Below the pieces are notes generated by a model, which saw only the letters and a list, made by a program, of their open reading frames with translations, had not been told where the DNA came from and made no database searches. Both the position numbers and the translations under genes were made by a program. Below are positions 16,334-36,355 of a stretch of 64,000 bases of DNA, piece after piece. Every line of letters begins with the position of its first letter. Position 1 is the first letter of the stretch. The DNA is from Paludisphaera mucosa. Lineage in GTDB: Bacteria > Planctomycetota > Planctomycetia > Isosphaerales > Isosphaeraceae. The DNA lies in NCBI RefSeq assembly GCF_029589435.1, contig NZ_JARRAG010000002.1:2914001-2978000 (forward strand), in the 5' to 3' direction.

Positions 16334-16621
16334 GAGGACGGGACCCGCACGCTTTGCACGCCAGATCGGTTTAAGACGCCATGCGGGCCCGTCGAGGCGA
16401 GAAACGACGGGCTCGCGGTCGTCTTGAGGGACGGCCCGTCCTCGAACGAGGCGACGGATGTCCCCTGTCGGCGAGAGCCGCGCGCTGGTATATCTGCTCG
16501 TTTCCTTGATGATGCGGACGCCCTCCCGACGGCCCCCCGGGGACCGTCGCGCCCGACGCGCGACGCCCGGTCGTTCGCGCCGCCGGGCCTCGCATCACAC
16601 GGCGGAAGGCGGAGCAGGATC

Positions 16622-18196
16622 GTGCAGCGCGTCGAGGCGGATCGTGCGGGTTGGGAGGAGGCCCTCGGCCGGGTCGGCCGCGGCGTCGCCGTGACTCTGG
16701 AGGACGGCCTCGCCCGTTTCGAGGAGCCGACGCCGGACGCGACGTCCGACCGCGCCGCGTTCATCCCCCCCTGCCCGATCGACCGCCTGGGCGACGCCTC
16801 ATTCCGCCGTCTGCACGGCGTCCGCTACGCCTGCGTCGCCGGGGCCATGGCCAACGGGATCGCTTCGGTCGAGCTCGTCGAGGCGATGGCCCGGGCCGGG
16901 ATGTTGGGAATTTTCGGCGCCGCGGGCCTGGGAGTCGACGCCGTAGAGCGGGCAGTCGACCGACTTCAAAGCAGTTTGGGCGATAAAGCCCAGTACGGCT
17001 TCAATCTGATCCACAGCCCGAACGAGCCGGCGATCGAGTCGGCCGTCGTCGACCTCTACCTGCGACGCAACGTCCGGCTGGTGGAAGCCTCGGCTTTCCT
17101 GAACCTGACGCTTCCCGTGGTCCGCTACCGCGTTGCGGGGATCCACCGCGACGAGCGCGGGCGGGTCGTCGTCCCCAACCGCGTGGTCGCCAAGGCGTCG
17201 CGGGTCGAAGTGGCGCGGCGGTTCCTAGCGCCACCTCCCGAGAAGATGCTGCGAAACCTCGTCGAGCAGCAGGTCATCACGCCCGACCAGGCCGCCATGG
17301 CCGCGACGATCCCCATGGCCGAGGACCTGACGGCCGAGGCCGATTCCGGCGGTCACACCGACAACCAGCCTCTCGTCGTACTGCTGCCGACCTTCCTGGC
17401 CCTTCGCGATCGGCTCGCGGCCGAACACGACTACGACCGTCCGCTCCGCGTGGGGGCGGCCGGGGGGATCTCGACCCCCTGGGCGGCCGCCGGGGCCTTG
17501 GCGATGGGGGCCGGCTATCTCGTGACCGGCTCGGTGAACCAGGCGTGCGTCGAGGCCGGGACGTCGGACGTCGTCCGCACGATGCTCGCCCAGGCCCAGC
17601 AGGCCGATATCGCCATGGCCCCGGCGGCCGACATGTTCGAGATGGGCGTCAAGGTGCAGGTCCTGAAGCGCGGGACCATGTTCGCGATGAGGGCGGCCAA
17701 GCTCTACGAGTATTATCGGGCCTACGACGGGCTCGCGACGATCCCCGAAGCCGATCGCGCGACCCTGGAGAAGACCATTTTCCGGACGCCCCTCTCCGAG
17801 GTCTGGGAGCAGACCCGCACGTTCTTCGCACGCCGCGATCCGGGCCAGATCGCCCGCGCCGAGGCCGACCCCAAGGTCAAGATGGCCCTGGTATTCCGTT
17901 GGTATCTCGGCCGGTCCTCGCACTGGGCGAACGTCGGCGAGCCGACCCGGGCCGTCGACTACCAGATCTGGTGCGGGCCGGCCATGGCGGCGTTCAACGA
18001 CTGGACGCGAGGGACGTTCCTCCAGGAGCCCGGCAACCGCCGCGCGGCCGACGTGGCCCTGAACATCCTGTACGGCGCCGCCGTCCTGCTTCGCGCCCGG
18101 ATGGCGACGATGCAGGGCGTGCCCCTCCCGGAGGGGACGCCGCGGCTGGCCCCCATGCCCCGTGAAGAGATTGAGAAATTGGGGGCGAATCCTTAA
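16622..18196 (+). CDS. pfaD: PfaD-like enoyl reductase of a PUFA-type synthase
   Basis: 524 residues from GTG 16622; an in-frame TTG at 16424 would add a low-complexity, basic N-terminus without conservation. It is a flavin-dependent 2-nitropropane-dioxygenase-fold enzyme of the PfaD type. Visible segments include VAGAMANGIASVELVEAMARA, GFNLIHSPNEPAIE, LRVGAAGGISTPWAAAGALA and GSVNQACVEAGTSD, and the C-terminal helical region RWYLGRSSHWANVGE typical of PfaD. In PUFA synthases PfaD is the trans-acting enoyl reductase that reduces selected double bonds on the ACP-bound chain. It is the first gene of the seven-gene array. Its TAA is one base before the pfaA ATG. Confidence 0.88.
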   Translation: MQRVEADRAGWEEALGRVGRGVAVTLEDGLARFEEPTPDATSDRAAFIPPCPIDRLGDASFRRLHGVRYACVAGAMANGIASVELVEAMARAGMLGIFGAAGLGVDAVERAVDRLQSSLGDKAQYGFNLIHSPNEPAIESAVVDLYLRRNVRLVEASAFLNLTLPVVRYRVAGIHRDERGRVVVPNRVVAKASRVEVARRFLAPPPEKMLRNLVEQQVITPDQAAMAATIPMAEDLTAEADSGGHTDNQPLVVLLPTFLALRDRLAAEHDYDRPLRVGAAGGISTPWAAAGALAMGAGYLVTGSVNQACVEAGTSDVVRTMLAQAQQADIAMAPAADMFEMGVKVQVLKRGTMFAMRAAKLYEYYRAYDGLATIPEADRATLEKTIFRTPLSEVWEQTRTFFARRDPGQIARAEADPKVKMALVFRWYLGRSSHWANVGEPTRAVDYQIWCGPAMAAFNDWTRGTFLQEPGNRRAADVALNILYGAAVLLRARMATMQGVPLPEGTPRLAPMPREEIEKLGANP

Positions 18197-18197
18197 G

Positions 18198-21100
18198 ATG
18201 GACGATCGCCCCTCGCCCCCTTTGAACCGCCCAGTCGACCGAGATCCCCACCCGGCCCGCATCGACGCTCGAAAGGGAAGTGACTTGAATCAGGCCGATT
18301 CCCCGCCTCCCGTCCCGGTGGCCATCATCGGGATGGGTTGCCTGTTCCCGAAAGCGGAAGACCTCGAGCGCTACTGGTCCAACATCCGCGACCGCCTGGA
18401 CGCGATCACCGAGGTCCCGGAGACGCACTGGCGCGCCGAGGACTACTTCGACGCCGACCCCAAGGCGCCCGACCGGACCTACGCCCATCGCGGCGGCTTC
18501 CTCGCCCCGGTCGACTTCCCGCTGCTCGACTTCGGCATCGCCCCCAACGCAATCGAGGCGACCGACACGTCGCAGCTCCTGGGGCTCCTGGTGGCGCGCC
18601 AGGCGCTGGAGGACGCCGGCTACGGGGCGGGCGGACGGGAATTCTCGCGCGACCGGACGAGCGTCATCCTGGGGGTGACGGGGACTCTCGAGCTGGTGAT
18701 CCCCCTCGGCGCGCGTCTGGGCCACCCGATCTGGCGGCGGGCGCTGGCCGAGGCGGGCGTCGACCGCGACACGGCCGACGACGTCGTCCGCCGGATCGCC
18801 GGCTCGTACGTCGGCTGGCAGGAGGCGTCGTTCCCGGGCCTGCTGGGCAACGTGGCCGCCGGCCGGATCGCCAATCGGCTCGACCTGGGCGGCTCCAACT
18901 GCGTCGTCGACGCCGCCTGCGCCAGCTCTCTGGGGGCGGTGAACCTGGCGCTGCACGAGCTGGCCTCGGGCCGTTGCGACGTCGCCCTCTCCGGCGGCCT
19001 CGACACGTTCAATGACATCTTCATGTACATGTGCTTCAGCAAGACCCCGGCGCTCTCGCCCTCGGGCCACGCCCGGCCGTTCGCGGCCGAAGGCGACGGC
19101 ACGACCCTGGGCGAAGGGCTGGGGATCCTCGTCCTGAAGCGGCTCGAAGACGCCGAACGCGACGGCGACCGGATCTATGCGGTCATCCGCTCGATCGGCT
19201 CGGCCAGCGACGGCGGCGGCCAGGCGATCTACGCCCCCAAGGCCGCCGGCCAGGCCAAGGCCCTGCGGCGGGCCTATCAGCAGGCCGGCATCGCCCCCGG
19301 GACCGTCGAGCTGGTCGAGGCCCACGGCACCGGCACCCGAGTCGGCGACGGCATCGAGGTCGAGGCCCTGGAAGAAGTCTTCCGAGCGGGAGGCACCGGG
19401 GCCCGCTCGTGCGCCCTGGGGTCGGTCAAGTCGCAGATCGGCCACACGAAGGCGGCGGCCGGCGCTGCGGGGCTCGTCAAGGCGGCCCTGGCGCTCCACC
19501 ATAAGGTGTTGCCGCCGACGATCAAGGTCGACCGGCCCCTCGAACGCCTGGCGGCCGACGACTCGCCGTTCTACCTCAACACCGACATCCGGCCCTGGCT
19601 GGGCTCGGCCGACCATCCCCGCCGCGCCGCCGTCAGCGCCTTCGGCTTCGGCGGCAGCAACTTCCACTGCGTCCTCGAAGAGGCCCGGCCCGACCGGCCG
19701 GCCGTCGACTGGGGCGGCGACGTCCAGGTCCTCGCCTACGCGGCCGACGACGCCCGAGCGATCGAGGCCCTCCTGCCGGCCTGGACCGACGCCACGACCT
19801 GGGCCCAGGTCCGGACCGAGGGGGCGAGGAGCCGAGAGGCCTTCCGCGCCGACCGCCCGCTGCGACTCCTGATCGTGGCGAAGCGCGGCGAGACGACGCC
19901 GGAGGCGCTGATCGCAGAGGCCCGCGAGCGGCTCTCAGGCACCCTTGCGACGCCTACGAAGCGGATCTTCCTCGGGAAGGGCGAAGTCGCCGGTCGGCTG
20001 GCGTTCCTCTTCCCGGGCCAGGGCTCGCAGTATGTGGGAATGACGCGTGACCTGGCTTGCCGATTCCCCCGCATGCTCGCCGCCTTGGAACTCGCCGATC
20101 GCGAGACCGCGGCCGCGCTCGACGGCACCAGGCTCAGCCACCATATCTTCCCTGCGCCGTCCTTCTCGGAAGAGCGACGGGCTCGCGACGACGACGCGCT
20201 ACGCGATACTCGCCGCGCCCAGCCGGCCATCGGGGCCGTCTCGCTGGGGATGCTCGGGATCCTGGAGGACTTCGGCGTCCGGCCCGAGATGACCGGCGGC
20301 CACAGCTTCGGCGAGTTGACCGCCTTGCACGCGTCGGGGCGGATCGACGCGGCCTCGTTGATGCGGCTGGCGGCCGAACGCGGGGCTTTGATGGGCCGCT
20401 GCGCCGGCGGCGAGGACGCCGGCGCCATGCTCGCCGCGTTCGCGCCGGCCGACGTGCTCGCCGATCTGATCCGAGAGCACGCTCTGGACGTCGTCGTCGC
20501 CAACAAGAACGCCCCTCGACAGTGCGTCCTGTCCGGCCCCGCGGCGGAGATCGCCCGCGCGGAAGGCCTGCTCCGCGAGGCCAGGGTCAGCGCCCGGCGG
20601 CTCCCGGTCGCGGCCGCCTTCCACAGCCGGTTCGTCGCCGACGCCCGCCGCCCTTTCCGGGAAACGCTCGACGGCGTCGTGGTCGGCCCCGCGGCGATCC
20701 CGACCTTCGCCAACTCCACCGCCGAGCCGTATCCCGACGCGGCCGCCATCGCCCGCGACCTCCTGGCCGACCAACTCGCCCGGCCGGTCGAGTTCGAGGC
20801 CATGATCGGGGCCATGCACCGCGAAGGGGCCCGCCTGTTCGTCGAGGTGGGGCCCGACTCCAAGCTCTCCGGGCTCGTCGCCGCGATCCTTGAAGGCCGC
20901 GACCACGCCTGCGTCGCGATCGACGCCGCCCGCGAGACGAACGGCCTGGTGGGTCTGGCCGTCACGCTCGCCGCGATCGCCGCCTCGGGCCGCCCCGTCG
21001 ACCTCGCTCGCTGGGACGCGGGCCACCCCTCCGCGGCGCCCGTCGGCAAGAAGGCCGGCCTCACCGTCCCGGTCTGCGGCGCGCACCCGACCCCGAATCG

Positions 21101-24100
21101 ACCGCCCGAGCCGGCCCTTCACGCCCCGAAACCTTCGGCGACACCCCAACGAGCCAGCAAGCCGACCGTCGCGATCGACGCGGCCGAGAAACCGCCGGCG
21201 CGCAACGGGACCCTTCCCGCGCCTTCCGGGCCAACCCAGCCACGAGCCCCCTTCGAGCGGACCATGAACGCCCCCGACCGCCTGCATCTCCCCTCGTCGA
21301 ATGGCAATGGACACGCCCACGGACTCGCGCACCCCGTCGAGCCGCAGCGCGAATCGCCCCGGCCGGCGCCTGCACCCGAGTCGGCCCCCGCGCTCCAGCA
21401 CGCCCACGACCACCTGATCGCGTTCCAGCAGCTCGCGCAGCAGACGGCCCGCCTGCACCAGCAGTTTCTGGAAGGTCAGGAGACCGCCCAGCGCACCTTC
21501 CAGCTTCTCCTCGAACATCAACTCCGACCGGGATCGTTCGTCCCCTCGCCGACGGCCCCGCACCCCGTCGTCGAGCCCGTTCGCGCCGCCGCCCGAGCGG
21601 TCGAATCCGCGAAGCCCGTCGTCGTGTCCCCGCCAATCCCGGCCCGAACCACCGTCGCCGCCCCTCGCCCCGAAGCCGTGAAGGTCGAGGCCCGCCGGGT
21701 CGAGCCGACGCCGGCTCCCATGGTCTCCGTCGCGGCCCCATTTGAGGCGTCTCCGGTCGCGGCGGTACTTCTGTCGGTGGTGTCGGAGAAGACGGGGTAC
21801 CCGGAGGACATGCTGGAATTGGGCATGCGGCTCGACGCCGACCTGGGGATCGACTCGATCAAGCGGGTCGAGATCCTCTCGGCCCTGCAGGACCGCCTCC
21901 CCGACGCCCCCGCCGTCGGGCCCGACCAGCTCGGCTCCATCCACTCCCTCGGCGACATCGTCGCCCTCCTCGGCGTCGCCACGCCGGTCGCGGCCCCCGC
22001 ATCGGCCGCCGTTCCGGCCGCTGCCGGCCCCGACGTGGCGGCGGTGCTTCTGTCGGTGGTGTCGGAGAAGACGGGGTACCCGGAGGACATGCTGGAATTG
22101 GGCATGCGGCTCGACGCCGACCTGGGGATCGACTCGATCAAGCGGGTCGAGATCCTCTCGGCCCTGCAGGACCGCCTCCCCGACGCCCCCGCCGTCGGGC
22201 CCGACCAGCTCGGCTCCATCCACTCCCTCGGCGACATCGTCGCCCTCCTCGGCGTCGCCACGCCGGTCGCGGCCCCCGCATCGGCCGCCGTTCCGGCCGC
22301 TGCCGGCCCCGACGTGGCGGCGGTGCTTCTGTCGGTGGTGTCGGAGAAGACGGGGTACCCGGAGGACATGCTGGAGCTGGGCATGCGGCTCGACGCCGAC
22401 CTGGGGATCGACTCGATCAAGCGGGTCGAGATCCTCTCGGCCCTGCAGGACCGCCTCCCCGACGCCCCCGCCGTCGGGCCCGACCAGCTCGGCTCCATCC
22501 ACTCCCTCGGCGACATCGTCGCCCTCCTCCAGGTCGGTCCCATGATAGCGCCGGCACCCGCGGCCGTTCCGCGCGTGAATTCTGAGGCGGCCGAGCCCTC
22601 CCCGCAGCCGACCCGCCTGGAGCGGTTGGCCCCGAGGCCCCGGGCCGTCGCGTCGGTAGATCATCGCGAGCGGGTCGAACTCGCCGCGGGTGCCGAGATT
22701 TGGATCACCGAAGACGGCTCTCCGCTGACGCCCGCCTTGAATGCGGCCCTGAAAGAGCGTGGTTTCAAGCCGCGGGTCGTCGGGCCGGAAGGGCTCCAGG
22801 TGACGGCCGCGACTCCGAGCGGCCTCATCCTCGTCGCTCCCGACCGGGCCGATTCGGACTTTCTGAAGCAGGCGTTTCGGCTCATCCGGACGGTCGGCCC
22901 AGGGCTCCGCGGTCGTCGCGCGTCGGCCCTGCTAACGGTCTCGCGGCTGGACGGGGCGTTCGGCCTGAACGGGCTCGATCCGGCGATCGAGCCGACATCC
23001 GGCGGGCTCGCCGGCCTGGCGAAGACCGCCGGGCGCGAGTGGCCCGAGGTGAGCTGCAAGGCGGTCGACCTCGACCGCGCGACGAGCGACCACGCCGACG
23101 CCGCCCGGCGCATCGTCGAGGAGCTGATGCGGCGGGGCCCGGCCGAGATCGGCCTGTCGGCCCGGGGGACGGTCGAGATCGCGCTCGAACGGGTCGAGTG
23201 GACCTCGGGCAACCACCGCCGCCGACCGGTCCTGGATCGCGGCGACCTCGTGGTGATCACAGGCGGGGCGCGGGGCATCGCTGCGGAAGCGGCGGTCGCC
23301 CTCGCGGAGACGTACCATCCCGCCCTGCTGCTCCTGGGACGGACTCCTGCCCCGACCGGACCCGAGCCCGCCTGGCTCGCCGCCGCGGGCGACGAGGCGG
23401 CTGTCCGCTCCGCGCTGCTTCGCCACGCGACCGAACCGACGCCCCCGCCGAAGGTCAACGAGCAGGCTCGCCTGATCCTCGCCCGCCGCGAGATCGCCGT
23501 CGCGCTCGACCGCATCCGCGCGGCCGGCGCCGAGGCGGTCTACGAGGCCGTCGACGTCCGCGACCGCGAGGCCGTGCGGGCGGCGATCACCCGGGCGCAG
23601 GGCCGCTTCGGTCACGTTCGGGGCGTCATCCACGCCGCCGGCGTCCTCGCTGATCGCCGCATCGAGGACCAGACGGACGCCCAGTTCGACCTCGTCTACG
23701 ACACCAAGATCGATGGACTGCTCTCGGTCTTCGAGGCCGTCGATCCTGGGGACCTCCGCGCCATCGCGGCCTTCTCGTCGTCGACGGCCCGGCTCGGCCG
23801 CGTCGGCCAGGTGGCATACGCCGCGGCCAACGAGGTCCTCAACAAGTGGTGCCAGGCCCAGGCGCGTCGGCTGCCGGAATGCCGTGTCGTCGCCTTCAAC
23901 TGGGGCCCGTGGGAGGGGGGCATGGTGACGCCTTCCCTCCGCACCGTCTTCGAGCGGGAAGGCGTCGGCCTGATCCCCATGGCCGAGGGCGCGGCCCTCG
24001 TCGCACGCGAGCTTCAGGAATCGCGCGAGAACCCGATCGAGATCGTCGTGCTGGCCGACCCCCCGCAGCCCGGGCCGGGCCGGCCGGAAGGTCGAGCGGA

Positions 24101-25025
24101 GCCGGAGCGAGTCGCAACGTCGGGAGAGGCCGACGCCGTCGACGCCGAGCTGAGGCCCGCCTTCGAGCGGCTCGTCGACGTCCAGGCGTTCCCCGTACTT
24201 CGTTCGCACGTCATCGACGGCCATGCGGTCCTGCCCATGGCCCTGATCATGGAATGGCTCTGCGAGGCCGCCGTGCATCGACACCCCGGACTGGTGGTGG
24301 CGGGTCTCGACGACTTCCGACTATTCAAGGGTGTCGTCCTCCGCGACCACAAGGCCGTCCCCGTGTCGCTGCGGGCGGGCAAGGGCGAATTTCGCGACGG
24401 ATCGTGGGTCGTCCCCGTCGAGATGCGTGGCAGGCTCGGCGAAGGCCGCGAGGTCGTCCACGCGCGAGCCACCGTCACCCTCGCCGATCGGCACGTCGAG
24501 GGGGCCAGGACTCTCGAAGAGAGCACACTCTTCGCCATGGACGACGATCGCGAGGCGATCTACGACCGGGTCCTTTTCCACGGCCCGGCGATGCAGGCCC
24601 TGGAGCGGGTGGAAGGGTGCGACGATCGGATGATCGCGGCCCGGGCCTCGACGTCCCCCGCGCCGGCGGAATGGATCGCCCGGCCCCTCCGTCGCGAGTG
24701 GTTGACGGACCCGCTGGCGATCGATGCGGCGTTCCAGTTGATGATCCTCTGGTGCCGTCAGATGTTGAACGCCAATTCGCTGCCGACGGCCGTCGGCTCG
24801 TACCGCCAGTTCCGCCGCAGGTTCCCGGCGGAGGGGGTCCGCGTCGTGGCGGTGATCCAGCGGGCGACCGACCTGACGGCCGTCGCCGACGTCGAGTTCC
24901 TCGACGATCGAGGCGGGCTGGTGGCCCGGATCGAGTCGTACGAGTGCGTCGTCGACGCCTCGCTGAACCAGGCCTTCCGCCGCAACCGGCTGACCCACCA
25001 CCAGGCGGTTGCAAACCCCCGATGA
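18198..25025 (+). CDS. pfaA: PfaA-like PUFA synthase: KS-AT-ACP-ACP-ACP-KR-DH
   Basis: 2275 residues. Ketosynthase (39-500) with C241 in DAACASS, H376 in EAHGTGT and H416 in KSQIGH. Acyltransferase (598-905) with S703 in GHSFGE. A Pro/Ala-rich linker holding a Gln-rich helix (1066-1111). Three 93-residue carrier modules with phosphopantetheine serines S1220, S1313 and S1406 in LGIDSIKR. Ketoreductase (about 1600-1960) with VVITGGARGI and an SSS...AYAAAN active site. A C-terminal hot-dog dehydratase-like domain (from about 2000) with H-x3-G-x4-P (HVIDGHAVLP). It builds a long acyl chain from malonyl units. The start is ATG 18198, directly after the pfaD stop; TTG 18285, with a GGGAAG-type site, is an alternative. 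The stop overlaps the next ATG (ATGA). Confidence 0.92.
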   Translation: MDDRPSPPLNRPVDRDPHPARIDARKGSDLNQADSPPPVPVAIIGMGCLFPKAEDLERYWSNIRDRLDAITEVPETHWRAEDYFDADPKAPDRTYAHRGGFLAPVDFPLLDFGIAPNAIEATDTSQLLGLLVARQALEDAGYGAGGREFSRDRTSVILGVTGTLELVIPLGARLGHPIWRRALAEAGVDRDTADDVVRRIAGSYVGWQEASFPGLLGNVAAGRIANRLDLGGSNCVVDAACASSLGAVNLALHELASGRCDVALSGGLDTFNDIFMYMCFSKTPALSPSGHARPFAAEGDGTTLGEGLGILVLKRLEDAERDGDRIYAVIRSIGSASDGGGQAIYAPKAAGQAKALRRAYQQAGIAPGTVELVEAHGTGTRVGDGIEVEALEEVFRAGGTGARSCALGSVKSQIGHTKAAAGAAGLVKAALALHHKVLPPTIKVDRPLERLAADDSPFYLNTDIRPWLGSADHPRRAAVSAFGFGGSNFHCVLEEARPDRPAVDWGGDVQVLAYAADDARAIEALLPAWTDATTWAQVRTEGARSREAFRADRPLRLLIVAKRGETTPEALIAEARERLSGTLATPTKRIFLGKGEVAGRLAFLFPGQGSQYVGMTRDLACRFPRMLAALELADRETAAALDGTRLSHHIFPAPSFSEERRARDDDALRDTRRAQPAIGAVSLGMLGILEDFGVRPEMTGGHSFGELTALHASGRIDAASLMRLAAERGALMGRCAGGEDAGAMLAAFAPADVLADLIREHALDVVVANKNAPRQCVLSGPAAEIARAEGLLREARVSARRLPVAAAFHSRFVADARRPFRETLDGVVVGPAAIPTFANSTAEPYPDAAAIARDLLADQLARPVEFEAMIGAMHREGARLFVEVGPDSKLSGLVAAILEGRDHACVAIDAARETNGLVGLAVTLAAIAASGRPVDLARWDAGHPSAAPVGKKAGLTVPVCGAHPTPNRPPEPALHAPKPSATPQRASKPTVAIDAAEKPPARNGTLPAPSGPTQPRAPFERTMNAPDRLHLPSSNGNGHAHGLAHPVEPQRESPRPAPAPESAPALQHAHDHLIAFQQLAQQTARLHQQFLEGQETAQRTFQLLLEHQLRPGSFVPSPTAPHPVVEPVRAAARAVESAKPVVVSPPIPARTTVAAPRPEAVKVEARRVEPTPAPMVSVAAPFEASPVAAVLLSVVSEKTGYPEDMLELGMRLDADLGIDSIKRVEILSALQDRLPDAPAVGPDQLGSIHSLGDIVALLGVATPVAAPASAAVPAAAGPDVAAVLLSVVSEKTGYPEDMLELGMRLDADLGIDSIKRVEILSALQDRLPDAPAVGPDQLGSIHSLGDIVALLGVATPVAAPASAAVPAAAGPDVAAVLLSVVSEKTGYPEDMLELGMRLDADLGIDSIKRVEILSALQDRLPDAPAVGPDQLGSIHSLGDIVALLQVGPMIAPAPAAVPRVNSEAAEPSPQPTRLERLAPRPRAVASVDHRERVELAAGAEIWITEDGSPLTPALNAALKERGFKPRVVGPEGLQVTAATPSGLILVAPDRADSDFLKQAFRLIRTVGPGLRGRRASALLTVSRLDGAFGLNGLDPAIEPTSGGLAGLAKTAGREWPEVSCKAVDLDRATSDHADAARRIVEELMRRGPAEIGLSARGTVEIALERVEWTSGNHRRRPVLDRGDLVVITGGARGIAAEAAVALAETYHPALLLLGRTPAPTGPEPAWLAAAGDEAAVRSALLRHATEPTPPPKVNEQARLILARREIAVALDRIRAAGAEAVYEAVDVRDREAVRAAITRAQGRFGHVRGVIHAAGVLADRRIEDQTDAQFDLVYDTKIDGLLSVFEAVDPGDLRAIAAFSSSTARLGRVGQVAYAAANEVLNKWCQAQARRLPECRVVAFNWGPWEGGMVTPSLRTVFEREGVGLIPMAEGAALVARELQESRENPIEIVVLADPPQPGPGRPEGRAEPERVATSGEADAVDAELRPAFERLVDVQAFPVLRSHVIDGHAVLPMALIMEWLCEAAVHRHPGLVVAGLDDFRLFKGVVLRDHKAVPVSLRAGKGEFRDGSWVVPVEMRGRLGEGREVVHARATVTLADRHVEGARTLEESTLFAMDDDREAIYDRVLFHGPAMQALERVEGCDDRMIAARASTSPAPAEWIARPLRREWLTDPLAIDAAFQLMILWCRQMLNANSLPTAVGSYRQFRRRFPAEGVRVVAVIQRATDLTAVADVEFLDDRGGLVARIESYECVVDASLNQAFRRNRLTHHQAVANPR
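21756..22529 (+). repeat. Three near-identical 279-bp tandem repeats encoding ACP modules
   Basis: Copies begin at 21756, 22035 and 22314 with a period of exactly 279 bp (93 codons). The third ends early, at about 22529, where the sequence becomes unique. Only a few substitutions separate them (GTC/GTG and TAC/TGC near the unit start; GAATTG versus GAGCTG before GGCATGCGG). Synonymous sites and the Ala/Pro linker are also nearly identical. This points to recent duplication or ongoing gene conversion. Assembly collapse or expansion of the copy number is possible. Confidence 0.95.
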
Positions 25026-28000
25026 CCACGCGACGAACCGGCGGGGTGGCGATCGTCGGCTTCGGCGCGGCCTTCCCGGGGGCCTCGGACGCGCAGGCCT
25101 TCTGGCGGCTCGTGTCCGAGGCTCGCGACGCGGCGACCGAAGTCCCCCCGGGACGATGGTTGCTCGACCCGGCGCAAGCCTTCGACCCCGAGATCGCCCG
25201 CCCCGACCGGGTCTACACGACGCGCGGCGCGTTCCTGGCCGACGAGGCTCTTGAAGTCGACTGCGAAGGCCTCGACGTCGATCCCGCGCTGGTGGATCGC
25301 CTCGACCCCGCATTCCGGCTGGCCCTCCGCACGGCGACCGAGGCGTGGCGCTCGGCGCGGACGTCGGCCGTCGACCGCTCGCGCGTCGGCGTGATCTTCG
25401 GCCACATCGTCCTGCCGACCGAGACGACCTCGGCGTTCACGCGCGCGACGATCGGCCGGGAGATCGAGGAGGCGCTCGGCGTGGCCGCCCTCGAACCTTA
25501 TCAGTTCGAGCCCCGCAACGCCTTCCCGGCCGGGGCGCCGGCGCGGCTCGTGGCGCAGGCCCTGGGCCTGGGCGGCGCGGCGTACACGATCGACGCCGCC
25601 TGCGCGTCGTCGCTCTACGCCCTGAAGCTGGCGTGCGACGAGCTGCTCTCGGGCCGGGCCGACGCGATGCTCGCCGGCGGAGTCTCGCGGCCCGACGCGC
25701 TCTACACCCAGATGGGCTTCTCGCAGCTCCGGGCCCTATCGGCCCGCGGCCGCGCGGCTCCGTTCGACGCCGAGGGCGACGGCCTGATCGTCGGCGAGGG
25801 GGCGGGCTTGTTCGTGCTGAAACGGCTCGAAGACGCCGTCGAACAGGGCGATGCGGTCCTCGGCGTCATCCGCGGCGTCGGCCTCTCCAACGACGTCCGC
25901 GGCGACCTGCTCGCCCCCAGCAGCGAGGGCCAGTTGCGAGCCTTGCGCTCGGCTTATGAGCAGGCCGGCTGGGAGCCCGACGACGTCGACCTGATCGAAT
26001 GTCACGCCACCGGCACTCCGCTCGGCGACTCCGTCGAGCTGGAGAGCCTGAAAACCCTATGGGCCGACCTGCCCCGGCCCGTCGAGCCGGGCTTTTGCGT
26101 GCTCGGGTCGGTGAAGTCGAACGTCGGCCACATGCTCACGGCCGCCGGCGCGGCCGGACTGCTGAAGGTCTTGCTCGCGTTCCAGCACAGGACCAGGCCG
26201 CCGACCGCCAACCATCGGACATCTTCGGCCCGCGTCCCCCTGGAGGGGAGCCCGTTCCGGGTGCTCCGGGCCGCCGAACCTTGGCCCGAGCCCGCGGCAG
26301 GCCGCCCTCGACGCGCCGCGATCAGCGGCTTCGGCTTCGGCGGGATCAACGCCCACGTCCTGATCGAGGAGTGGACGGGCGAGAATGCGGGGCCGGCGAC
26401 GGCTCGCGAGGCCTCGGCGGCCGAGGCCGTCGCCATCGTCGGCCTGGCGGCCCGATTCGGCCGGGATTCCGACCTGGACGCCTTCGAGCGGCGAGTCCTG
26501 GCCGGCGAGCCGGGAGAGGTGGGGCGGGAGGCGAGGATCGAAGAACTAGGCCTCCGGCTGGGCCGCTTTCGGATCCCCCCGCGCGAACTGGAAGAGATGC
26601 TGCTCCAGCAGTCGGCGACGCTCCTGGTCACGGCCGACGCGATCGCCGACGCGAACTGGTCGCCCGAGTCCGCCCTGAGTTCGGGCGTGCTCGTCGGCCT
26701 GGGCCTCGACCTGAACGCCACCAACTTCCAGCTTCGCTGGTGGCTGGAATCGCGGGCGTCGGCATGGAACCGGGAGCAGGGCTGGGAGCTGACCGACGTC
26801 GAGCTGGCGGCGTGGGTCGCCGAGGCCTGCGACGCGATCCAGCCCGCGCTCACCGCCAACCGGACGATGGGATCGCTCGGCGGCCTCGTCGCCAGCCGGA
26901 TCGCCAGGGAGTTCCGCATCGGCGGGCCCAGCTTCACCACGTCGAGCGACGAGGGATCGGGCCTGGACGCCCTGCGGATCGCCGCCGACTGGCTGGCGCG
27001 GGGTGAGCTGGACTCGGCCATCGTCGCCGCCGTGGACCTCGCCGCCGATCCCCGCACGAGCCTCGCGGCGCGCAGGCTGGCTGCCGAATCCGGGCTGGAG
27101 GGTCTCAAGACCGGCGACTGCGTGGTGGCAATGGTCCTGAAACGCCGAAACGACGCCCTGCGCGACGGCGACCGGATCTATGCGATCCTCGGCGACCACA
27201 AGAGCGGCCTACCCGCGATCATCCTGGACGCCCCGCGCGGCTCTCTCGGCTGGACCGGCGCGGCCGAGGGCCTCGCGACGGTCGCCGCGGCGGCTCTGGC
27301 CCTAGACCGCTCGGTCGTCCCCCCTTCGGGCCGCTGGTCCGGGGGGACGGCGGACGGTCGGTCGCCGAGCTATTGGCCCCATAACCGCGACGAGGGGACA
27401 CGATCAAGTCGGGTCGAAGTGCGAGGGCTGGACGGCACGTCTCGGTCGATCGTCCTGGAGGCTGTCGAGAGCGACGGCGTCCGACCGCTCGATCCCGCCC
27501 CGATCGCCCTTTTTTCGGTGTACGGCGGCAGCGTCGAGGAGCGGCTGCGCCGGCTCGACGAGCTGGCGACCCTCGTTTCCGGAGTAGGCGAGCGGACGAT
27601 CGATCAGATGGCGGCGGCATGGTGGCGCGTGGCTTGCGAGCATGCATCCGACGGTCCGGGCCTGAGCTTCCTGGCGGCCGACGCCGCCTCCCTCGCGAGG
27701 GCCGTCGCCGAGGCTCGCGACGACCTGACGAGCGGCCATCCGGCTTCGCGGTCACGGCCGACGGCGGACGTCGAGGTTTTCGAGCCGGCCGCAGACGGTG
27801 ACGGCCCGCCGCTCGTCGCGTTCACTTATCCGGGCCTGGGCGCGGCTTATCCCCAGATGGGCGCCGAGGTTTCGGCCCTCTGGCCCGAACTGATGCGCGA
27901 CCTGGAGAAGCGCTACGCGACGCTGCGCGACCAGTTCGTCCCCGAAAGATGGTGGAACGGCCCCGGATCGATCCCGTGCGACGACCACCGGCCGGCGATC

Positions 28001-31000
28001 CTGGGGCAGATCTCGGTCGGCTCGCTGATGACGTCGCTGTTCCAGAAACTGGGCGTCCGCCCCGTCGCCGCGGTCGGCTACAGCCTGGGCGAGTCCGCCG
28101 CGCTCGTCTCGCTCGGGGCCTGGGACGATCGCGACGCCATGGTTCGGCGGCTGATGGACTCGCCGCTCTTCGCCACCGAGCTGGCCGGCCCCTGCCTGGC
28201 CGCGCGGCGAGTCTGGGGGCTCGCGGACGACGAGCCCGTCGACTGGGTCGCGGCGCTCGTCCCGCGCTCGCTCGAACAGGTGCAGTCGGCGATCGGTCTC
28301 GAAGCTCGCGTGTACGTCCTGATTCGCAACGCGGCCGACGAGGTCGTGATCGGCGGTCGGGGCGACGCCGTGCGTCGCGTGATCGAGACGATCGGGTGCC
28401 CGGTCCTGCCGCTGCCGATGGTCAGCACCGTCCACTGCCCGATCGGCCGCGACGTCGAGCCGGCCTACCGGACGCTCCACGAGCTGAAGACGTCGCCCGT
28501 GCCCGACGTCACGTTTTACAGCGGCGTCTGGGGGAGCGGCTACCATCCCGACCACGGCACCGCGACGGCCGCCGTCACCGCGCAGGCCTCGCGGATGATC
28601 GATTATCCGGCGGTCGTCGAGAAGGTCTACGCCCACGGCGTCCGCGTGTTCGTCGAGATGGGGCCCGGCGCCGGCTGCACCCGCCTCGTCGGTCGCATCC
28701 TCCAGGGCCGTCCCCACCTGGCGGTCGCCGCCGACGAGGCTGAAGGCGACGCGCTCCGATCCGTCTTACGGGCCATCGGGGCCCTGATCGCCGCGGGCGT
28801 GCCCGTCGACCTGGACTTCCTCTACGCTCGCGTAGAGGATCGCCCGGCCGCGGGCCGCGAAGAGGGCGTCCGGGAGATCGTCGTCGTGCGCCGCGACCCG
28901 CCTCTTCGGCTGCCGACGCCTCCCCGTATCGCGCGTCCCGTCGCGGCCGTCTCTACGTCCGTCGTCACTGAACCGATCTCCATCCCGGACCCTGCCGCGA
29001 GCCTCACGCCAGCCATGCCCGAACCGATCCTCACGCCGACCCTCTCGCCGTTGAGCCGCAGCTTCCTGGCCTCGCAGCAGGCGACGGCCGACGCCCACGA
29101 GGTCTTCCTGCGGCTCTCACGCTCTTATACCGATGCGCTCGGCCGGCAAGCCGGGGCCGTGCTCGACGCCATCGGCTCGGGCGAGTCGTGGAGCCCCGCG
29201 ATGGCGACGCCCGTCGCCGAAGTCACGCCCCTCGCGCCGCGGCGGTCCGACGTTGCCCTGGACCGCGACCAGTGCCTGGAATACGCCGTTGGCTCGATCG
29301 CGGCGGTTCTGGGGCCCGAGTACGCCGAGATCGACGCCCACCCTACGAGGGTGCGGTTGCCGGACGAGCCGCTCATGCTCGTCGACCGGATTATGAGCGT
29401 CGAGGGGACCCAGTTCTCGCTCGACCATGGCCGGGTCGTGACCGAGCACGACGTGCTCCACGACGGCTGGTATCTCGACGGCGGCCGAATCGCGGCCTGC
29501 GTGGCGATCGAGGCCGGGCAGGCCGACCTCTTCCTCTCGGGCTGGCTGGGGATCGATTTCGTCACCAAGGGCCACGCCGTCTACCGGCTCCTCGACGCCA
29601 CCGTGACGTTCCACGGCCCGCTGCCCGCCCCGGGCTCGGTGATCCGCTACGACATCCGGATCAGCGGCTTCTTCCGCCAGGGCGAGACCCACCTCTTCCG
29701 GTTCGAGTTCGTCGGGACCGTCGACGGCGAGCCGTTGCTGACGATGAAGGACGGCTGCGCGGGGTTCTTCTCGGCCGGAGAGCTGGCCGCCGGCAAGGGG
29801 ATCGTCCCCCGGCCGCTCGACTCCCAGCCCCGCGCGGGCAAGCGGCCCGAAGACTGGCGCGAGCTGGCCCCGACCACGCCCTGCAGGCTCGACGCCGCCC
29901 AGGTCGACGCCCTCCGCGCCGGCGACCTGGCCGCGGCGTTCGGTTCGCCCTTCGACCGGCTCGACCTCGCGGATCCGCTGACGTTGCCGGGCGGGCGGAT
30001 GACGCTCGTGCATCGCGTCGAGGCGTTGGACCCGAAGGGGGGCCGCTTCGGCCTGGGCCAGATCCGCGCCGAGGCCGACGTCCATCCCGACGACTGGTTC
30101 ATGGTCTGCCACTTCGTCGACGACCGCGTCATGCCCGGCACGCTCATGTACGAGTGCTGCCTGCACACGCTCCGCATCCTCCTGACCAGGATGGGATGGG
30201 TGGGCGCGGCCGACCGCGTCCGCTTCGAGCCGATGACGGGCGTCGCCAACCGCCTGCGATGCCGGGGCCAGGTGACGGAGTCGACCCGGGTCGTGACCTA
30301 CGAGGTGACGATCAAGGAGTTGGGCTACGGTCCCGAGCCGTTCGCGATCGCCGACGCCCTGATGTACGCCGACGGCAAGCCGGTCGTCGAGTTCACCGAC
30401 ATGGGCCTCCGCCTCGCCGGGACCGACCGCGCCGAGGTCGAGACGCTCTGGGATGCGGCCCGTTCCAAGGAAGGCGGCCCGGCCGCGTCGGCCCTGGTCT
30501 ACGGGCCCGACCAGATGGCGGCGTTCGTCGAGGGGAAGCCGTCGGAGTGCTTCGGCGATCGCTTCCGGCCGTTCGACGAGGGCCGATTCATCGCCCGCTT
30601 GCCCCGACCGCCTTACCAGTTCCTCGACCGAGCGACGATCCTCCAAGGGGCGCTGTGCGAGCAATCCGTCGGGACGACGGCCGTGGCCGAATACGCCGTA
30701 CCGCCCGACGCCTGGTACTTCGACGCCGACCGCCAGCCCCACATGCCCTACGCGGTGCTGCTCGAAGCGGCGCTCCAGCCTTGCGGCTTCGTCTCGGCCT
30801 TCATGGGCTCGGCGCTGTTGAGCGACGAGCCCATGAAGTACCGCAACCTCGGCGGCCGGGCGACGCAGCATCGGGTCATCGACCGGAGCAGCGGCCTTAT
30901 TACCACGACGGTCCGCGTGACCAAGATCAACCGCTCGGGCGGGATGATCCTCCACCATTTCGACATGAGCGTCCGCGACCGCGAGGGCGTCGTCTTCGAC

Positions 31001-31573
31001 GGCGACACCTTTTTCGGCTTCTTCCCGCTCCAGGCGCTCGAGAACCAGGTCGGGATCCGCGAGGCGTCGCCGTACGTGCTCACGCCCGAGGATCGGGCGG
31101 AGTCGCGGTCGTTCCCCCTCCCGGATCGCGCGCCGCTGCCGGAGCGGCGCTGGCGGATGGTGGACCGTATCGTCGCGCTGACCATGACCGGCGGCCCGCG
31201 CGGGCTGGGCTTCGCGGCGGGCGAGACCGACGTCGATCCCTCGGCCTGGTTCTTCCAGGCGCATTTCCTGGGCGACCCGGTCTGGCCCGGGTCATTGGGC
31301 TTGGAATCGCTGCTGCAACTCCTTAAAGTCTTTGCTGAAGCGAGATGGGGCGTCGACGCTCGCACCGTGTTCGATTCGCCCGGGATCGGCGCGGAGCACG
31401 GCTGGACCTACCGCGGCCAGATCACGCCCGGCAACCGCGTCGTGACGACCCAGGCGTGGATCACCGGCGTCGACGACGCGCGACGGCGCGTGACGGCCGA
31501 CGGCCTCCTCTCCGTCGACGGCAAGGTCATCTACCAGATGACGAACTACACGCTCGACGTCCGCCCCGAGTGA
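25022..31573 (+). CDS. pfaC: PfaC-like PUFA synthase: KS-CLF-AT-DH-DH
   Basis: 2183 residues. Ketosynthase (7-455) with C194 in DAACASS, H328 in ECHATGT and H370 in KSNVGH. Chain-length-factor-like second KS (468-830): the active-site Cys position holds E644 (TTSSDEGSG), so it cannot condense. Acyltransferase (about 930-1255) with S1021 in GYSLGES. A linker with a helix (1342-1385) resembling one in PfaA. Two FabA-like dehydratase double hot-dogs (about 1435-1800 and 1820-2183), whose second halves carry CHFVDDRVMPG and AHFLGDPVWPG. The dehydratases create and may isomerise the double bonds. There is no separate pfaB; the AT here probably serves that role. The ATG overlaps the pfaA stop by 4 bp. 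The long open frame upstream of 25022 is a shadow of pfaA. Confidence 0.92.
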   Translation: MTTRRTGGVAIVGFGAAFPGASDAQAFWRLVSEARDAATEVPPGRWLLDPAQAFDPEIARPDRVYTTRGAFLADEALEVDCEGLDVDPALVDRLDPAFRLALRTATEAWRSARTSAVDRSRVGVIFGHIVLPTETTSAFTRATIGREIEEALGVAALEPYQFEPRNAFPAGAPARLVAQALGLGGAAYTIDAACASSLYALKLACDELLSGRADAMLAGGVSRPDALYTQMGFSQLRALSARGRAAPFDAEGDGLIVGEGAGLFVLKRLEDAVEQGDAVLGVIRGVGLSNDVRGDLLAPSSEGQLRALRSAYEQAGWEPDDVDLIECHATGTPLGDSVELESLKTLWADLPRPVEPGFCVLGSVKSNVGHMLTAAGAAGLLKVLLAFQHRTRPPTANHRTSSARVPLEGSPFRVLRAAEPWPEPAAGRPRRAAISGFGFGGINAHVLIEEWTGENAGPATAREASAAEAVAIVGLAARFGRDSDLDAFERRVLAGEPGEVGREARIEELGLRLGRFRIPPRELEEMLLQQSATLLVTADAIADANWSPESALSSGVLVGLGLDLNATNFQLRWWLESRASAWNREQGWELTDVELAAWVAEACDAIQPALTANRTMGSLGGLVASRIAREFRIGGPSFTTSSDEGSGLDALRIAADWLARGELDSAIVAAVDLAADPRTSLAARRLAAESGLEGLKTGDCVVAMVLKRRNDALRDGDRIYAILGDHKSGLPAIILDAPRGSLGWTGAAEGLATVAAAALALDRSVVPPSGRWSGGTADGRSPSYWPHNRDEGTRSSRVEVRGLDGTSRSIVLEAVESDGVRPLDPAPIALFSVYGGSVEERLRRLDELATLVSGVGERTIDQMAAAWWRVACEHASDGPGLSFLAADAASLARAVAEARDDLTSGHPASRSRPTADVEVFEPAADGDGPPLVAFTYPGLGAAYPQMGAEVSALWPELMRDLEKRYATLRDQFVPERWWNGPGSIPCDDHRPAILGQISVGSLMTSLFQKLGVRPVAAVGYSLGESAALVSLGAWDDRDAMVRRLMDSPLFATELAGPCLAARRVWGLADDEPVDWVAALVPRSLEQVQSAIGLEARVYVLIRNAADEVVIGGRGDAVRRVIETIGCPVLPLPMVSTVHCPIGRDVEPAYRTLHELKTSPVPDVTFYSGVWGSGYHPDHGTATAAVTAQASRMIDYPAVVEKVYAHGVRVFVEMGPGAGCTRLVGRILQGRPHLAVAADEAEGDALRSVLRAIGALIAAGVPVDLDFLYARVEDRPAAGREEGVREIVVVRRDPPLRLPTPPRIARPVAAVSTSVVTEPISIPDPAASLTPAMPEPILTPTLSPLSRSFLASQQATADAHEVFLRLSRSYTDALGRQAGAVLDAIGSGESWSPAMATPVAEVTPLAPRRSDVALDRDQCLEYAVGSIAAVLGPEYAEIDAHPTRVRLPDEPLMLVDRIMSVEGTQFSLDHGRVVTEHDVLHDGWYLDGGRIAACVAIEAGQADLFLSGWLGIDFVTKGHAVYRLLDATVTFHGPLPAPGSVIRYDIRISGFFRQGETHLFRFEFVGTVDGEPLLTMKDGCAGFFSAGELAAGKGIVPRPLDSQPRAGKRPEDWRELAPTTPCRLDAAQVDALRAGDLAAAFGSPFDRLDLADPLTLPGGRMTLVHRVEALDPKGGRFGLGQIRAEADVHPDDWFMVCHFVDDRVMPGTLMYECCLHTLRILLTRMGWVGAADRVRFEPMTGVANRLRCRGQVTESTRVVTYEVTIKELGYGPEPFAIADALMYADGKPVVEFTDMGLRLAGTDRAEVETLWDAARSKEGGPAASALVYGPDQMAAFVEGKPSECFGDRFRPFDEGRFIARLPRPPYQFLDRATILQGALCEQSVGTTAVAEYAVPPDAWYFDADRQPHMPYAVLLEAALQPCGFVSAFMGSALLSDEPMKYRNLGGRATQHRVIDRSSGLITTTVRVTKINRSGGMILHHFDMSVRDREGVVFDGDTFFGFFPLQALENQVGIREASPYVLTPEDRAESRSFPLPDRAPLPERRWRMVDRIVALTMTGGPRGLGFAAGETDVDPSAWFFQAHFLGDPVWPGSLGLESLLQLLKVFAEARWGVDARTVFDSPGIGAEHGWTYRGQITPGNRVVTTQAWITGVDDARRRVTADGLLSVDGKVIYQMTNYTLDVRPE

Positions 31574-31616
31574 TCGACATCCTCCCAGCCAACCGGTGGC
31601 CGCCCTGATGGCATCG

Positions 31617-32669
31617 ATGAAATATCAGAACGTCTTCGTGGAGGCGTTCGGCTACGAGGTCGCCCCGGTGGTCGTCTCGTCGGCCGAGCTGGAAGAGCGG
31701 CTCGCGCCGGTGTACGACCGGCTGCACCTCAACGTCGGCCAGCTCGAGGCCCTGACCGGGATCGTCGAGCGGCGCTGGTGGGAGGTGGGCCACCGCGTCT
31801 CCGACGGCGCGGTCGTCGCGGCCTCGCGGGCGCTCGAGGCGGCCGACCTGCCGGCCGACAAGGTCGAGGCCGTGGTCTACGGCGGCGTCTGCCGCGAGCA
31901 CTACGAGCCCGCCACGGCCTGCCGGGTTGCGTCGGAGCTGTCCGTCAACCCGGGGGCCGTCGTCCACGACGTGAGCAACGCCTGCCTCGGGGTGATCGAC
32001 GGCATGATCGACGTCGCCAATCGGATCGAGCTGGGCCAGATCCGCGCGGGGCTCGTCGTGGCCTGCGAGACGGCCCGCGAGATCAACGACGTGATGATCG
32101 CGCGGATGCTCCAGAACCCCACGATGGACTTCTTCAAGCACGCCCTGGCGACGCTGACCGGCGGTTCGGGGGCCGTCGCCGTGCTGCTGACCGACGCCTC
32201 GCTCTCGCGCTCGAAGCGGCGACGGCTGCTCGGCGGCGCGGTGCGCACGGCCCCGCAGCACCACGAGCTTTGCCGCTGGGGCGTCGAGGACGCCGACCCG
32301 GCGACGCCCGGCCTGCTCCGCGCGTTCACGTCGACCGACTCCGCCGCCGTCCTGAGCCACGGAGTCGAGCTGGGGGTCAAGACCTGGCAGGCGTTCCTGG
32401 GCAGCCTGGGCTGGATCAAGGAGAAGGTCGACCGCGTGATCTGCCACCAGGTGGGGGGCTCGCACCGCGACGCCATCCTGCGGTCGATCGGGGTGCCGAT
32501 CGAGAAGGACTTCTCGACGTTCGCCTACCTCGGCAACATGGGGACCGTGGCCCTGCCCCTGACCGCCGCCATCGCCGAGGACCGCGGCGTCCTCCGCCCC
32601 GGCGATCGGACCGCGTTCCTGGGGATCGGCAGCGGTTTGAACTGCCTGATGCTGGGGTTGGAGTGGTGA
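31617..32669 (+). CDS. oleA: OleA-like acyl-CoA/acyl-ACP head-to-head condensing thiolase
   Basis: 350 residues of the FabH/OleA thiolase family. C123 lies in VSNACLGVIDG, H277 in ICHQVGGSH and N307 in YLGNMGTVALP. The N-terminus MKYQNVFVEAFGYE and the end GIGSGLNCLMLGLEW match OleA closely. OleA joins two fatty acyl thioesters head to head to give a 2-alkyl-3-ketoacid. ATG 31617 is preferred over GTG 31596 and ATG 31608, because OleA proteins usually begin a few residues before the first strand. It lies 43 bp after pfaC, the largest gap in the array. The acyl donors may be the Pfa products (inference). Confidence 0.9.
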   Translation: MKYQNVFVEAFGYEVAPVVVSSAELEERLAPVYDRLHLNVGQLEALTGIVERRWWEVGHRVSDGAVVAASRALEAADLPADKVEAVVYGGVCREHYEPATACRVASELSVNPGAVVHDVSNACLGVIDGMIDVANRIELGQIRAGLVVACETAREINDVMIARMLQNPTMDFFKHALATLTGGSGAVAVLLTDASLSRSKRRRLLGGAVRTAPQHHELCRWGVEDADPATPGLLRAFTSTDSAAVLSHGVELGVKTWQAFLGSLGWIKEKVDRVICHQVGGSHRDAILRSIGVPIEKDFSTFAYLGNMGTVALPLTAAIAEDRGVLRPGDRTAFLGIGSGLNCLMLGLEW

Positions 32670-32674
32670 TCGGG

Positions 32675-33631
32675 ATGACGACGACGGCCGCGCTTCGCAC
32701 TTCGAGCCCCGAATTGTCCGCGTTCCTCGCCGCCCACCCCGGCCGCGACTGGAAGCGCGACGGGATCCGCCAGCACTACCTCGACGAGGGCCATGGACCG
32801 CCGGTCGTGATGGTCCACGGCAACCCGACTTGGTCGTTCTATTATCGCCGGCTGGTCGAGGCGCTCAGCCCGACCCACCGCGCAATCGTCCCCGACCACA
32901 TCGGCTGCGGCCTCTCCGACAAGCCCGACGACTCGCGGTACCGCTACACCCTGGAGAGCCGCGTCGACGACCTGGAACGCCTGCTCGACCACCTTGGCGT
33001 CCGCGAACGCGTCTCGCTCGTCGTCCACGATTGGGGCGGGATGATCGGGACCGCCTACGCCGCTCGGCACCCCGAGCGGATCGCGAAGATGGTCGTCATG
33101 AACACGGCCGGCTTCCACATGCCGGCCGCCAAGTCGTTCCCCTGGGCGCTCCACGTCTGCCGCGACACGCCCCTGGGCGCCTGGACGGTCCGAGGCCTGA
33201 ACGCCTTCGCACGCGGCACGGCCTGGATCGGCTGCAAGAACGAGCGGATGCCGCGGTCGCTCCGCGACGCCTACGCCGCGCCTTACGACGACTGGTCCAA
33301 CCGCATCGCCATCCACCGTTTCGTCCAGGACATCCCGCTCCGCCCCGGCGACCGGGCGTACGACCTGGTGAGCTGGGTCCAGGACCGCCTTCCGCTGCTC
33401 GCGGAGGTCCCGATGCTCCTGGCCTGGGGTATGAAGGATTTCGTCTTCGACGAGCCGTTCCTCAAAGAGTGGGAGCGTCGCTTCCCGGCCGCCGAGGTCC
33501 ACCGCTACCCGAACGCCGGCCATTACGTCCTGGAAGACGAGGCCGCGAGCCTGGTCCCCCGGATCCGGGACTTCCTGGCCGGGACCGGAACCAGGCCGAC
33601 GGGGGGGCGAGCCGATGGCTCCGAGGGCTGA
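32675..33631 (+). CDS. oleB: OleB-like alpha/beta hydrolase (beta-lactone decarboxylase)
   Basis: 318 residues of the haloalkane-dehalogenase-like alpha/beta hydrolase branch. The oxyanion motif is VHGNPTWSF, the nucleophile is D119 in VVHDWGG and the catalytic His is in NAGHYVLEDE. An Asp nucleophile, unlike the Ser of esterases, fits OleB, which opens and decarboxylates the beta-lactone to a cis-olefin. The start is ATG 32675; GTG 32666, overlapping the oleA stop, is also possible. It is a stand-alone OleB, not the OleBC fusion of actinobacteria. It overlaps oleC by 17 bp. Confidence 0.88.
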   Translation: MTTTAALRTSSPELSAFLAAHPGRDWKRDGIRQHYLDEGHGPPVVMVHGNPTWSFYYRRLVEALSPTHRAIVPDHIGCGLSDKPDDSRYRYTLESRVDDLERLLDHLGVRERVSLVVHDWGGMIGTAYAARHPERIAKMVVMNTAGFHMPAAKSFPWALHVCRDTPLGAWTVRGLNAFARGTAWIGCKNERMPRSLRDAYAAPYDDWSNRIAIHRFVQDIPLRPGDRAYDLVSWVQDRLPLLAEVPMLLAWGMKDFVFDEPFLKEWERRFPAAEVHRYPNAGHYVLEDEAASLVPRIRDFLAGTGTRPTGGRADGSEG

Positions 33632-35339: not shown

Positions 35340-36355
35340 GCCTCGATCCCGACCGGCCCGTGCTGGTCACCGGCGGCGGCGGATTCCTCGGCTCGGCCGT
35401 GGTCGCGATGCTCCGCGAACGCGGCCAGCCCGTGAGATCCCTGACGCGGAGGCATTACCCGCGCCTCGACGCCCTGGGGGCCGAGCAGGTCGAGGGCGAC
35501 GTCGCGGACGTCGCGACGGTCGACCGCGCCGCGGCAGGTTGCCAGGCCGTCTTCCACGTCGCGGCCAAGGCGGGCCTCTGGGGCCCCGAGCACGAATACC
35601 GCCGCACCAACGTCGTCGGCACCGAGAACGTCCTCGCCGCCTGCCGCAAGCACGGCGTCCGCAAGGCGGTCTACACCAGCTCGCCGAGCGTCGTCTTCCA
35701 CGGCACCGACCTCGAAGGGGTCGACGAGTCGGTCCCCTACCCCGACCATTACGAGGCCGCTTACCCCGAGACGAAGGCCATCGCCGAAAGGCTCGTGCTG
35801 GAGGCGAACGACGAGGCCCTGGCGACCGTGGTCCTCCGGCCGCATCTGATCTGGGGGCCCGGCGACAACAACATCCTGCCGCGGATCTACGCCCGCGCCC
35901 GCGCCAATCGGCTCTTCCGGATCGGCCGTCGTAACCCCCTGATCGACCTGACTTACATCGACAACGCCGCCGCGGCGCACCTGCTCGCGGCCGACAAGCT
36001 CGACGTGGGCTCGGCGATCGCCGGCAAGGTGTACTTCATCGCCCAGGGGCAGCCGGTGCCGCTCTGGGACATGGTCGACCGCTTCCTGGAGATCGCCCAC
36101 CTGCCTCCGGTGAGGCGGACCGTCCCGCGCGGCCTGGCGATCGCGATCGGCAGGGCCCTCGAGGGCGTCTACCGGACCTTCCGGCTCAAAGGCGAGCCCA
36201 GGATGACCCGGTTCCTCGCCCACGAGCTGTCCACGGCCCATTGGTACAACCTCGAAGCCGCGCGCCGAGACCTCGGCTACGCCCCCCACGTCGGCATCGA
36301 GGAAGGCCTGCGCCGGCTCGCCGCCTCGCTGCACGAAGGCCCGCCCGCGACTTGA
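35336..36355 (+). CDS. oleD: OleD-like NAD(P)-dependent 2-alkyl-3-ketoacid reductase
   Basis: 339 residues of the extended short-chain dehydrogenase family. The nucleotide motif VLVTGGGGFLGSAVV is at the N-terminus, the catalytic Ser in VYTSSPSVVFHG and the Tyr-x3-Lys in YPETKAIAE. OleD reduces the 2-alkyl-3-ketoacid made by OleA to the 3-hydroxyacid used by OleC. ATG 35336 overlaps the oleC stop. It is the last gene of the array. A 7-bp GCCCGCG/CGCGGGC hairpin spans its stop codon. Confidence 0.9.
   Translation: MSLDPDRPVLVTGGGGFLGSAVVAMLRERGQPVRSLTRRHYPRLDALGAEQVEGDVADVATVDRAAAGCQAVFHVAAKAGLWGPEHEYRRTNVVGTENVLAACRKHGVRKAVYTSSPSVVFHGTDLEGVDESVPYPDHYEAAYPETKAIAERLVLEANDEALATVVLRPHLIWGPGDNNILPRIYARARANRLFRIGRRNPLIDLTYIDNAAAAHLLAADKLDVGSAIAGKVYFIAQGQPVPLWDMVDRFLEIAHLPPVRRTVPRGLAIAIGRALEGVYRTFRLKGEPRMTRFLAHELSTAHWYNLEAARRDLGYAPHVGIEEGLRRLAASLHEGPPAT

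Follow-up and report, generated by a model that had tools for sequence, protein, structure and literature searches.

Tandem, near-identical acyl carrier protein domains in a planctomycete PfaA-type lipid synthase and their probable turnover as a block

The pfa genes and their ole-like neighbours

The window analysed here, by which we mean the whole 64,000-nucleotide stretch of DNA from the soil planctomycete Paludisphaera mucosa, carries pfa genes and ole-like genes side by side on the forward strand. A pfaD-like enoyl reductase gene (16424..18196, +; TIGR02814 pfaD_fam, 633.1 bits, cut-off 449.25) is followed by pfaA (18162..25025, +), whose product is 2287 residues long if translation starts at the GTG at 18162. 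The first-pass annotation had identified this gene as PfaA, and the whole-protein score of 1535.7 bits against TIGR02813 (cut-off 1010.1 bits) bears the name out. Pfam matches occur in the order ketoacyl-synt, Acyl_transf_1, PP-binding (three stretches), KR and, at the C-terminus, PS-DH; this corresponds to the layout KS–AT–3 ACP–KR–DH and includes the KS–AT–tandem ACP–KR order of the TIGR02813 family.

The end of pfaA overlaps, through the sequence ATGA, the start of a pfaBC-like fusion gene (25022..31573, +), a single open reading frame that encodes a KS, a second KS-like domain, an AT and FabA-like dehydratases in that order. Pfam finds four stretches of FabA and two of ketoacyl-synt, with Acyl_transf_1 below its cut-off, and the pfaB_fam model reaches 71.4 bits, under its cut-off of 144.3. 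The second KS-like domain is without the active Cys and, when read by eye, would be a chain-length factor. In marine gamma-proteobacteria pfaB and pfaC are separate genes, unlike the fusion seen here. Two phosphopantetheinyl transferase matches (PF01648) lie over the cut-off in the genome, both outside the window.

Directly 3′ of the pfa genes, and in the same orientation, are four genes (31596-36355) whose families and order fit oleABCD. The oleA-like condensing enzyme gene (31596..32669, +) matches NF006720 (3-oxoacyl-ACP synthase III) with 469.7 bits (cut-off 285), and the oleB-like alpha/beta hydrolase gene (32675..33631, +) matches Pfam Abhydrolase_1, with haloalkane-dehalogenase models below their cut-offs; both are named from such general models and from their place in the block. 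The oleC-like olefin beta-lactone synthetase gene (33615..35339, +) scores 706.5 bits with NF006754 (cut-off 478), and the oleD-like 2-alkyl-3-oxoalkanoate reductase gene (35315..36355, +) matches Pfam 3Beta_HSD. The specific models for these two genes give strong scores that nevertheless remain below the cut-offs: 631.9 and 631.4 bits for two olefin beta-lactone synthetase models (850 and 900 required) and 432.5 bits for NF042422 (580 required).

The same arrangement recurs in relatives. Among 20 stretches downstream of pfaA that were searched at E ≤ 1e-20, 14 contain all four ole-like genes and three contain partial sets, in G011 (where the contig ends), G010 (where the stretch ends early) and G024 (OleA and OleB only). 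No ole-like genes were found in the stretches from G009 and G012, both of which are short and end with the contig, nor within 15 kb downstream of pfaA in G039, which belongs to another family. On the evidence of gene order and published work on Shewanella, the synthase most probably supplies polyunsaturated acyl chains to the OleABCD-like pathway encoded beside it; there they would be joined head to head to give a long polyunsaturated hydrocarbon. This places a planctomycete lipid synthase beside a pathway that probably uses its product.

Structure of the ACP array

Tandem Repeats Finder detects one array in pfaA, at 21759-22529, with a period of 279, 2.8 copies, 99% matches, 0% indels and a score of 1521; the remaining 12 rows that it returns for the window have a top score of 118. 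The 279-bp unit consists of a 216-bp ACP and a 63-bp linker, read in the frame of PfaA. ACP domain 1 (21756..21971, +), linker 1 (21972..22034, +), ACP domain 2 (22035..22250, +), linker 2 (22251..22313, +) and ACP domain 3 (22314..22529, +) follow one another, and the sequence 3′ of ACP 3 is unique, being unlike the linker at 36 of 63 positions, so that the array comprises three ACPs and two linkers, with only two full 279-bp units.

Linker 1 and linker 2 match over all 63 nt. A direct base count gives 2 differences in 279 positions for copy 1 against copy 2; within the 216 positions of the ACP, copy 2 differs from copy 3 at 2 and copy 1 from copy 3 at 4. Four columns, all silent (three third codon positions and one first position, TTG/CTG), account for the whole of this variation, and the three 72-residue ACPs are identical in protein sequence. 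These counts, like the Tandem Repeats Finder result, agree with the original observation that the three modules are nearly identical in DNA, linkers included. Chance is not credible as a source of the array; the rest of the genome holds a single further match to it at E ≤ 0.001, of 59 nt at 78%. Each of the three ACPs retains the motif LGIDSIK, whose serine we take to be the carrier site, and the best explanation of the domains, which we consider likely as a whole, is that they serve an iterative lipid synthase of the PfaA type as phosphopantetheine carriers, each able to stand in for the others. A search of solved structures gave two distant matches only (PigH and SDAP2).

Copy number and divergence in relatives

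The first-pass annotation had recommended a comparison of copy number in related genomes. In the planctomycete relatives examined, drawn from a set with one genome per species, the ACP count is 2, 3 or 5, with a single ACP in one genome (G023). A motif search covered 79 loci from named genomes, a set from which the genome of the window itself and its closest relatives may be missing; 41 of these loci offered two or more full ACPs for comparison. All ACP pairs are at least 0.95 identical at just one of the 41, that of P. soli (G003), and arrays diverged to 0.64-0.85 identity are found in G006, G009, G019, G021, G025 and G035. Homogenisation of the arrays is not universal, many related arrays being diverged, and those of the genus Paludisphaera form the homogeneous end of a range. 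G006 has two separate long open reading frames (on contigs C79 and C63), each with three PfaA-like ACPs.

Concerted evolution of the ACP and linker units

Silent sites distinguish sharply between comparisons within and between species. Within the array the mean pS is 0.046 in this species and 0.000-0.086 in four congeners, whereas between this species and the same four congeners it is 0.378-0.454 for KS-AT, 0.440-0.519 for KR-DH and 0.266-0.473 for ACP against ACP. The ACP value falls below that of KS-AT in some pairs, as in G001-G003 (0.155 against 0.344). Since silent sites have diverged between congeners and hardly at all within the array, constraint does not account for the identity.

In a maximum-likelihood tree built from 56 ACPs in 21 genomes, the ACPs split by genome in 18 of the 21 (ultrafast bootstrap 84-100), and FastTree recovers the same grouping in 16 of 21, with the rooting genome G039 scored as a failure. 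The genomes whose ACPs do not group in this way, and which on the trees do not show greater likeness within than between species, are G009 and G021, each with three diverged ACPs, and G014, whose ACPs intermix with those of its relative G031.

The linkers behave similarly in the genus, with a mixed picture outside it. Their length within the genus is 63 (G000), 63 (G003), 96 (G001), 66 (G005) or 69 nt (G002); in the three-copy arrays of the genus (n = 3) both linkers are identical within each array, and between species the linkers are unlike in length or sequence. Among all 12 arrays with at least two linkers, the linkers are of equal length and 95-100% identical in five (G000, G001, G002, G028 and G039) and of unequal length in the other seven. 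Strong homogenisation takes whole ACP+linker units, and in the genus Paludisphaera likeness is greater within than between species at both silent sites and linkers. The earlier proposal that such identity means recent expansion or gene conversion is thus backed by pS, by the linkers and by the splits of the tree. We interpret the pattern as concerted evolution through turnover of ACP+linker units, which would most simply proceed by unequal crossing-over or slippage.

A mosaic middle copy and a possible history

The middle copy of the array has the character of a mosaic. At zero-based unit positions 2 and 11 ACP domain 2 has the base of copy 3, and at positions 62 and 63 that of copy 1, with no private base over 279 bp; only four columns carry this pattern, and two of these lie no more than 12 nt from the edge of the array. 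G001 and G002 likewise have middle copies without a private base. In G001, however, all 10 variable columns fall within the first 15 nt, so that its middle copy is little informative, and in G002 one column of 10 departs from the simple order. The middle copy of G028 carries three private changes.

In the simplest history there would have been two copies at first, distinguished by four silent bases. One misaligned exchange would then have added a unit, leaving a middle copy that is copy 3 in its 5′ part and copy 1 in its 3′ part, which is the order of the variants observed in copy 2. More generally, we think it likely that each ACP together with its linker undergoes turnover as one block within the gene, through recombination between copies of the unit, and that the last such event in this array was recent; such block turnover would account for the near-identity of the ACPs. 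Unequal crossing-over and replication slippage are the candidate modes, to which gene conversion may have contributed. The identity of the copies, the mosaic, the grouping by genome, and the contrast in the genus between linkers that resemble each other within a species and differ from one species to another are direct observations, from which we infer the exchange event itself.

Alternative explanations

Conversion and crossing-over would be expected to leave similar marks in these arrays, and conversion likewise homogenises copies. A history of conversion alone, in which the number of copies stayed fixed and units were neither gained nor lost recently, also fits the presence of three units in all three contiguous genomes of the genus and in G014, G025, G028 and G031. 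In contiguous assemblies of other genera, however, the count is 2 (G024, G047, G053) or 5 (G039), and between species of the genus the length of the linker shifts together with the array. Because genera differ in the number of units, for which contiguous assemblies give 2, 3 or 5, we rank crossing-over or slippage first and regard conversion alone as rather unlikely. A further alternative, which we consider extremely improbable, is that the identity is held not by recombination but by selection on DNA or RNA, through codon usage, structure or an overlapping gene. It draws on the first half of the unit, where G-ending codons dominate (17 G against 3 C at fourfold sites), a G-richness matched nowhere else in pfaA among 1991 overlapping stretches, and where only 2 of 17 and 3 of 17 fourfold sites differ from G001 and P. 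soli, compared with 10 of 21 and 10 of 22 in the second half. It draws also on a long antisense open frame over the array, which is likewise long in G028 and in all four further Paludisphaera-genus genomes that were tested. When 15 pairs of six species are pooled, though, fourfold divergence is equal in both halves (96/229 and 122/290), a pattern that fails for G000 against its two nearest congeners, and silent-site constraint on the G-rich half was rejected on this basis. The linkers, moreover, are the same within but not between species, and the longest run of the antisense frame is just 138-427 residues in 5 of 11 genomes (G006, G014, G024, G025 and G047). Selection of this kind is already disfavoured by the silent divergence between species.

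The remaining alternative is that the assembler collapsed or expanded the array, so that the true copy number is different; for this genome we think it very unlikely. The exact repeat runs at offset 279 are 329 and 152 nt long and equal or exceed common short reads, and in six relatives (G004, G015, G033, G038, G056 and G061) the array lies at a contig end. Among near-identical arrays (lowest pair identity at least 0.90), three or more copies are seen in 7 of 10 contiguous assemblies (10 contigs or fewer) and in none of 6 fragmented ones (about 30 contigs or more; Fisher p 0.011). Within fragmented assemblies the same 0 of 6 compares with 9 of 13 diverged arrays (p 0.011; G006, G009, G010, G018, G019, G021, G032, G035, G036, G060, G062, G063 and G064). 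Excluded from the copy-number comparison were G023 (one ACP), the second array of G006 and the six arrays cut by a contig end, and G025, which is contiguous and diverged, entered neither comparison. The identity threshold and the split by contiguity were both chosen after the data had been seen and the genomes are related and not independent, so we treat the association as a lead; it suggests that ACP counts for near-identical arrays in fragmented assemblies are unreliable. The present assembly is of another kind, with 9 contigs, 8.2 Mb and three 16S genes inside contigs. Its three rRNA loci share exact runs of 6,073-6,101 bp and are placed at least 112 kb from a contig end, with no N bases there or at the array; repeats of this length inside contigs make it very probable that the assembly was built from reads spanning the 771-bp array. 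Three copies are also seen in the two remaining genomes of the genus that have contiguous assemblies. The warning in the first-pass annotation that short reads might have miscounted the units therefore fits the fragmented relatives and probably does not apply to this assembly, where the rRNA repeats, judged from the assembly itself, speak against it.

Comparison with known systems

The nearest known systems, on the published passages available, are the Type I cluster that Shulse and Allen describe (PMC3098273) and the connection of Pfa with OleA (PMC6463001). The former includes Gemmata obscuriglobus and relatives of Geobacter, with a proposed role in supplying olefin precursors, and shares with the present locus a pfa-like cluster and a pfaBC fusion. 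As described in part of that paper, ole genes are often linked to Type I clusters and can lie elsewhere; here they directly adjoin the pfa genes. Several of the nearest matches outside Planctomycetota are Geomonas and relatives. In Shewanella, OleA connects the Pfa and Ole pathways to the 31:9 hydrocarbon (Allemann et al. 2019, PMC6463001, in the passages available). In the present locus both gene sets make up one co-oriented block; a difference is that its ole-like genes fall below two specific model cut-offs.

Tandem near-identical ACPs are also found in the Pfa synthase of Photobacterium profundum, in which only 13 positions vary among five ACPs that behave as beads on a string (PMC3585217, in extract). 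The three ACPs seen here compare with four in S. oneidensis PfaA and nine in Schizochytrium OrfA (PMC5067506, as excerpted). According to the same excerpts, yield rises with ACP number and the product profile is unchanged when Schizochytrium and Shewanella synthases are expressed in E. coli, so that the earlier remark on copy number and yield has a published basis; by analogy, carrier number may set flux in this PfaA. The array is fairly ordinary for the PfaA family. Near-identity of ACPs in protein is already known; the present analysis adds evidence for turnover from the DNA and the linkers. Homogenisation of these arrays was not encountered in the titles and passages of the literature searched, which mostly excludes subscription journals. 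The available passages of a paper on assembly-line biosynthesis (PMC9205934) make no mention of PUFA, the main text of a review of planctomycete metabolites (PMC12078418) contains none of the terms PUFA, pfa and polyunsaturated, and the passages of PMC10308959 have nothing on planctomycete arrays.

The locus offers a clean example, from nature, of concerted evolution within a megasynthase gene, with in-frame turnover of a unit that is known to determine product yield in other systems. Because the unit is in frame (93 codons), gain or loss keeps PfaA intact and alters only the number of carriers. A bolder reading, to which we give little credence, is that the array acts as a recombination-driven rheostat, with units gained and lost so frequently that carrier number varies within one population. 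If so, polyunsaturated lipid or hydrocarbon output would differ between cells and could be tuned by selection without regulatory change.

Other sequence features

Codon choice switches inside the unit (22035-22250), the second half having 4 G against 21 C at fourfold sites. The G-rich first half is common to P. soli, G001 and G005 and is not seen in G002. The antisense open frame extends over 20199-22664 on the minus strand (821 codons) and covers the array; an overlapping gene was considered there and rejected, the frame being much shorter in G006, G014 and G024, and it is probably a by-product of GC-rich codons. Elsewhere in the window, at 47017-47148, short tandem repeats of 15-33 bp overlap one another, and their units resemble GGCGGCCTTCTTGGGGGC.
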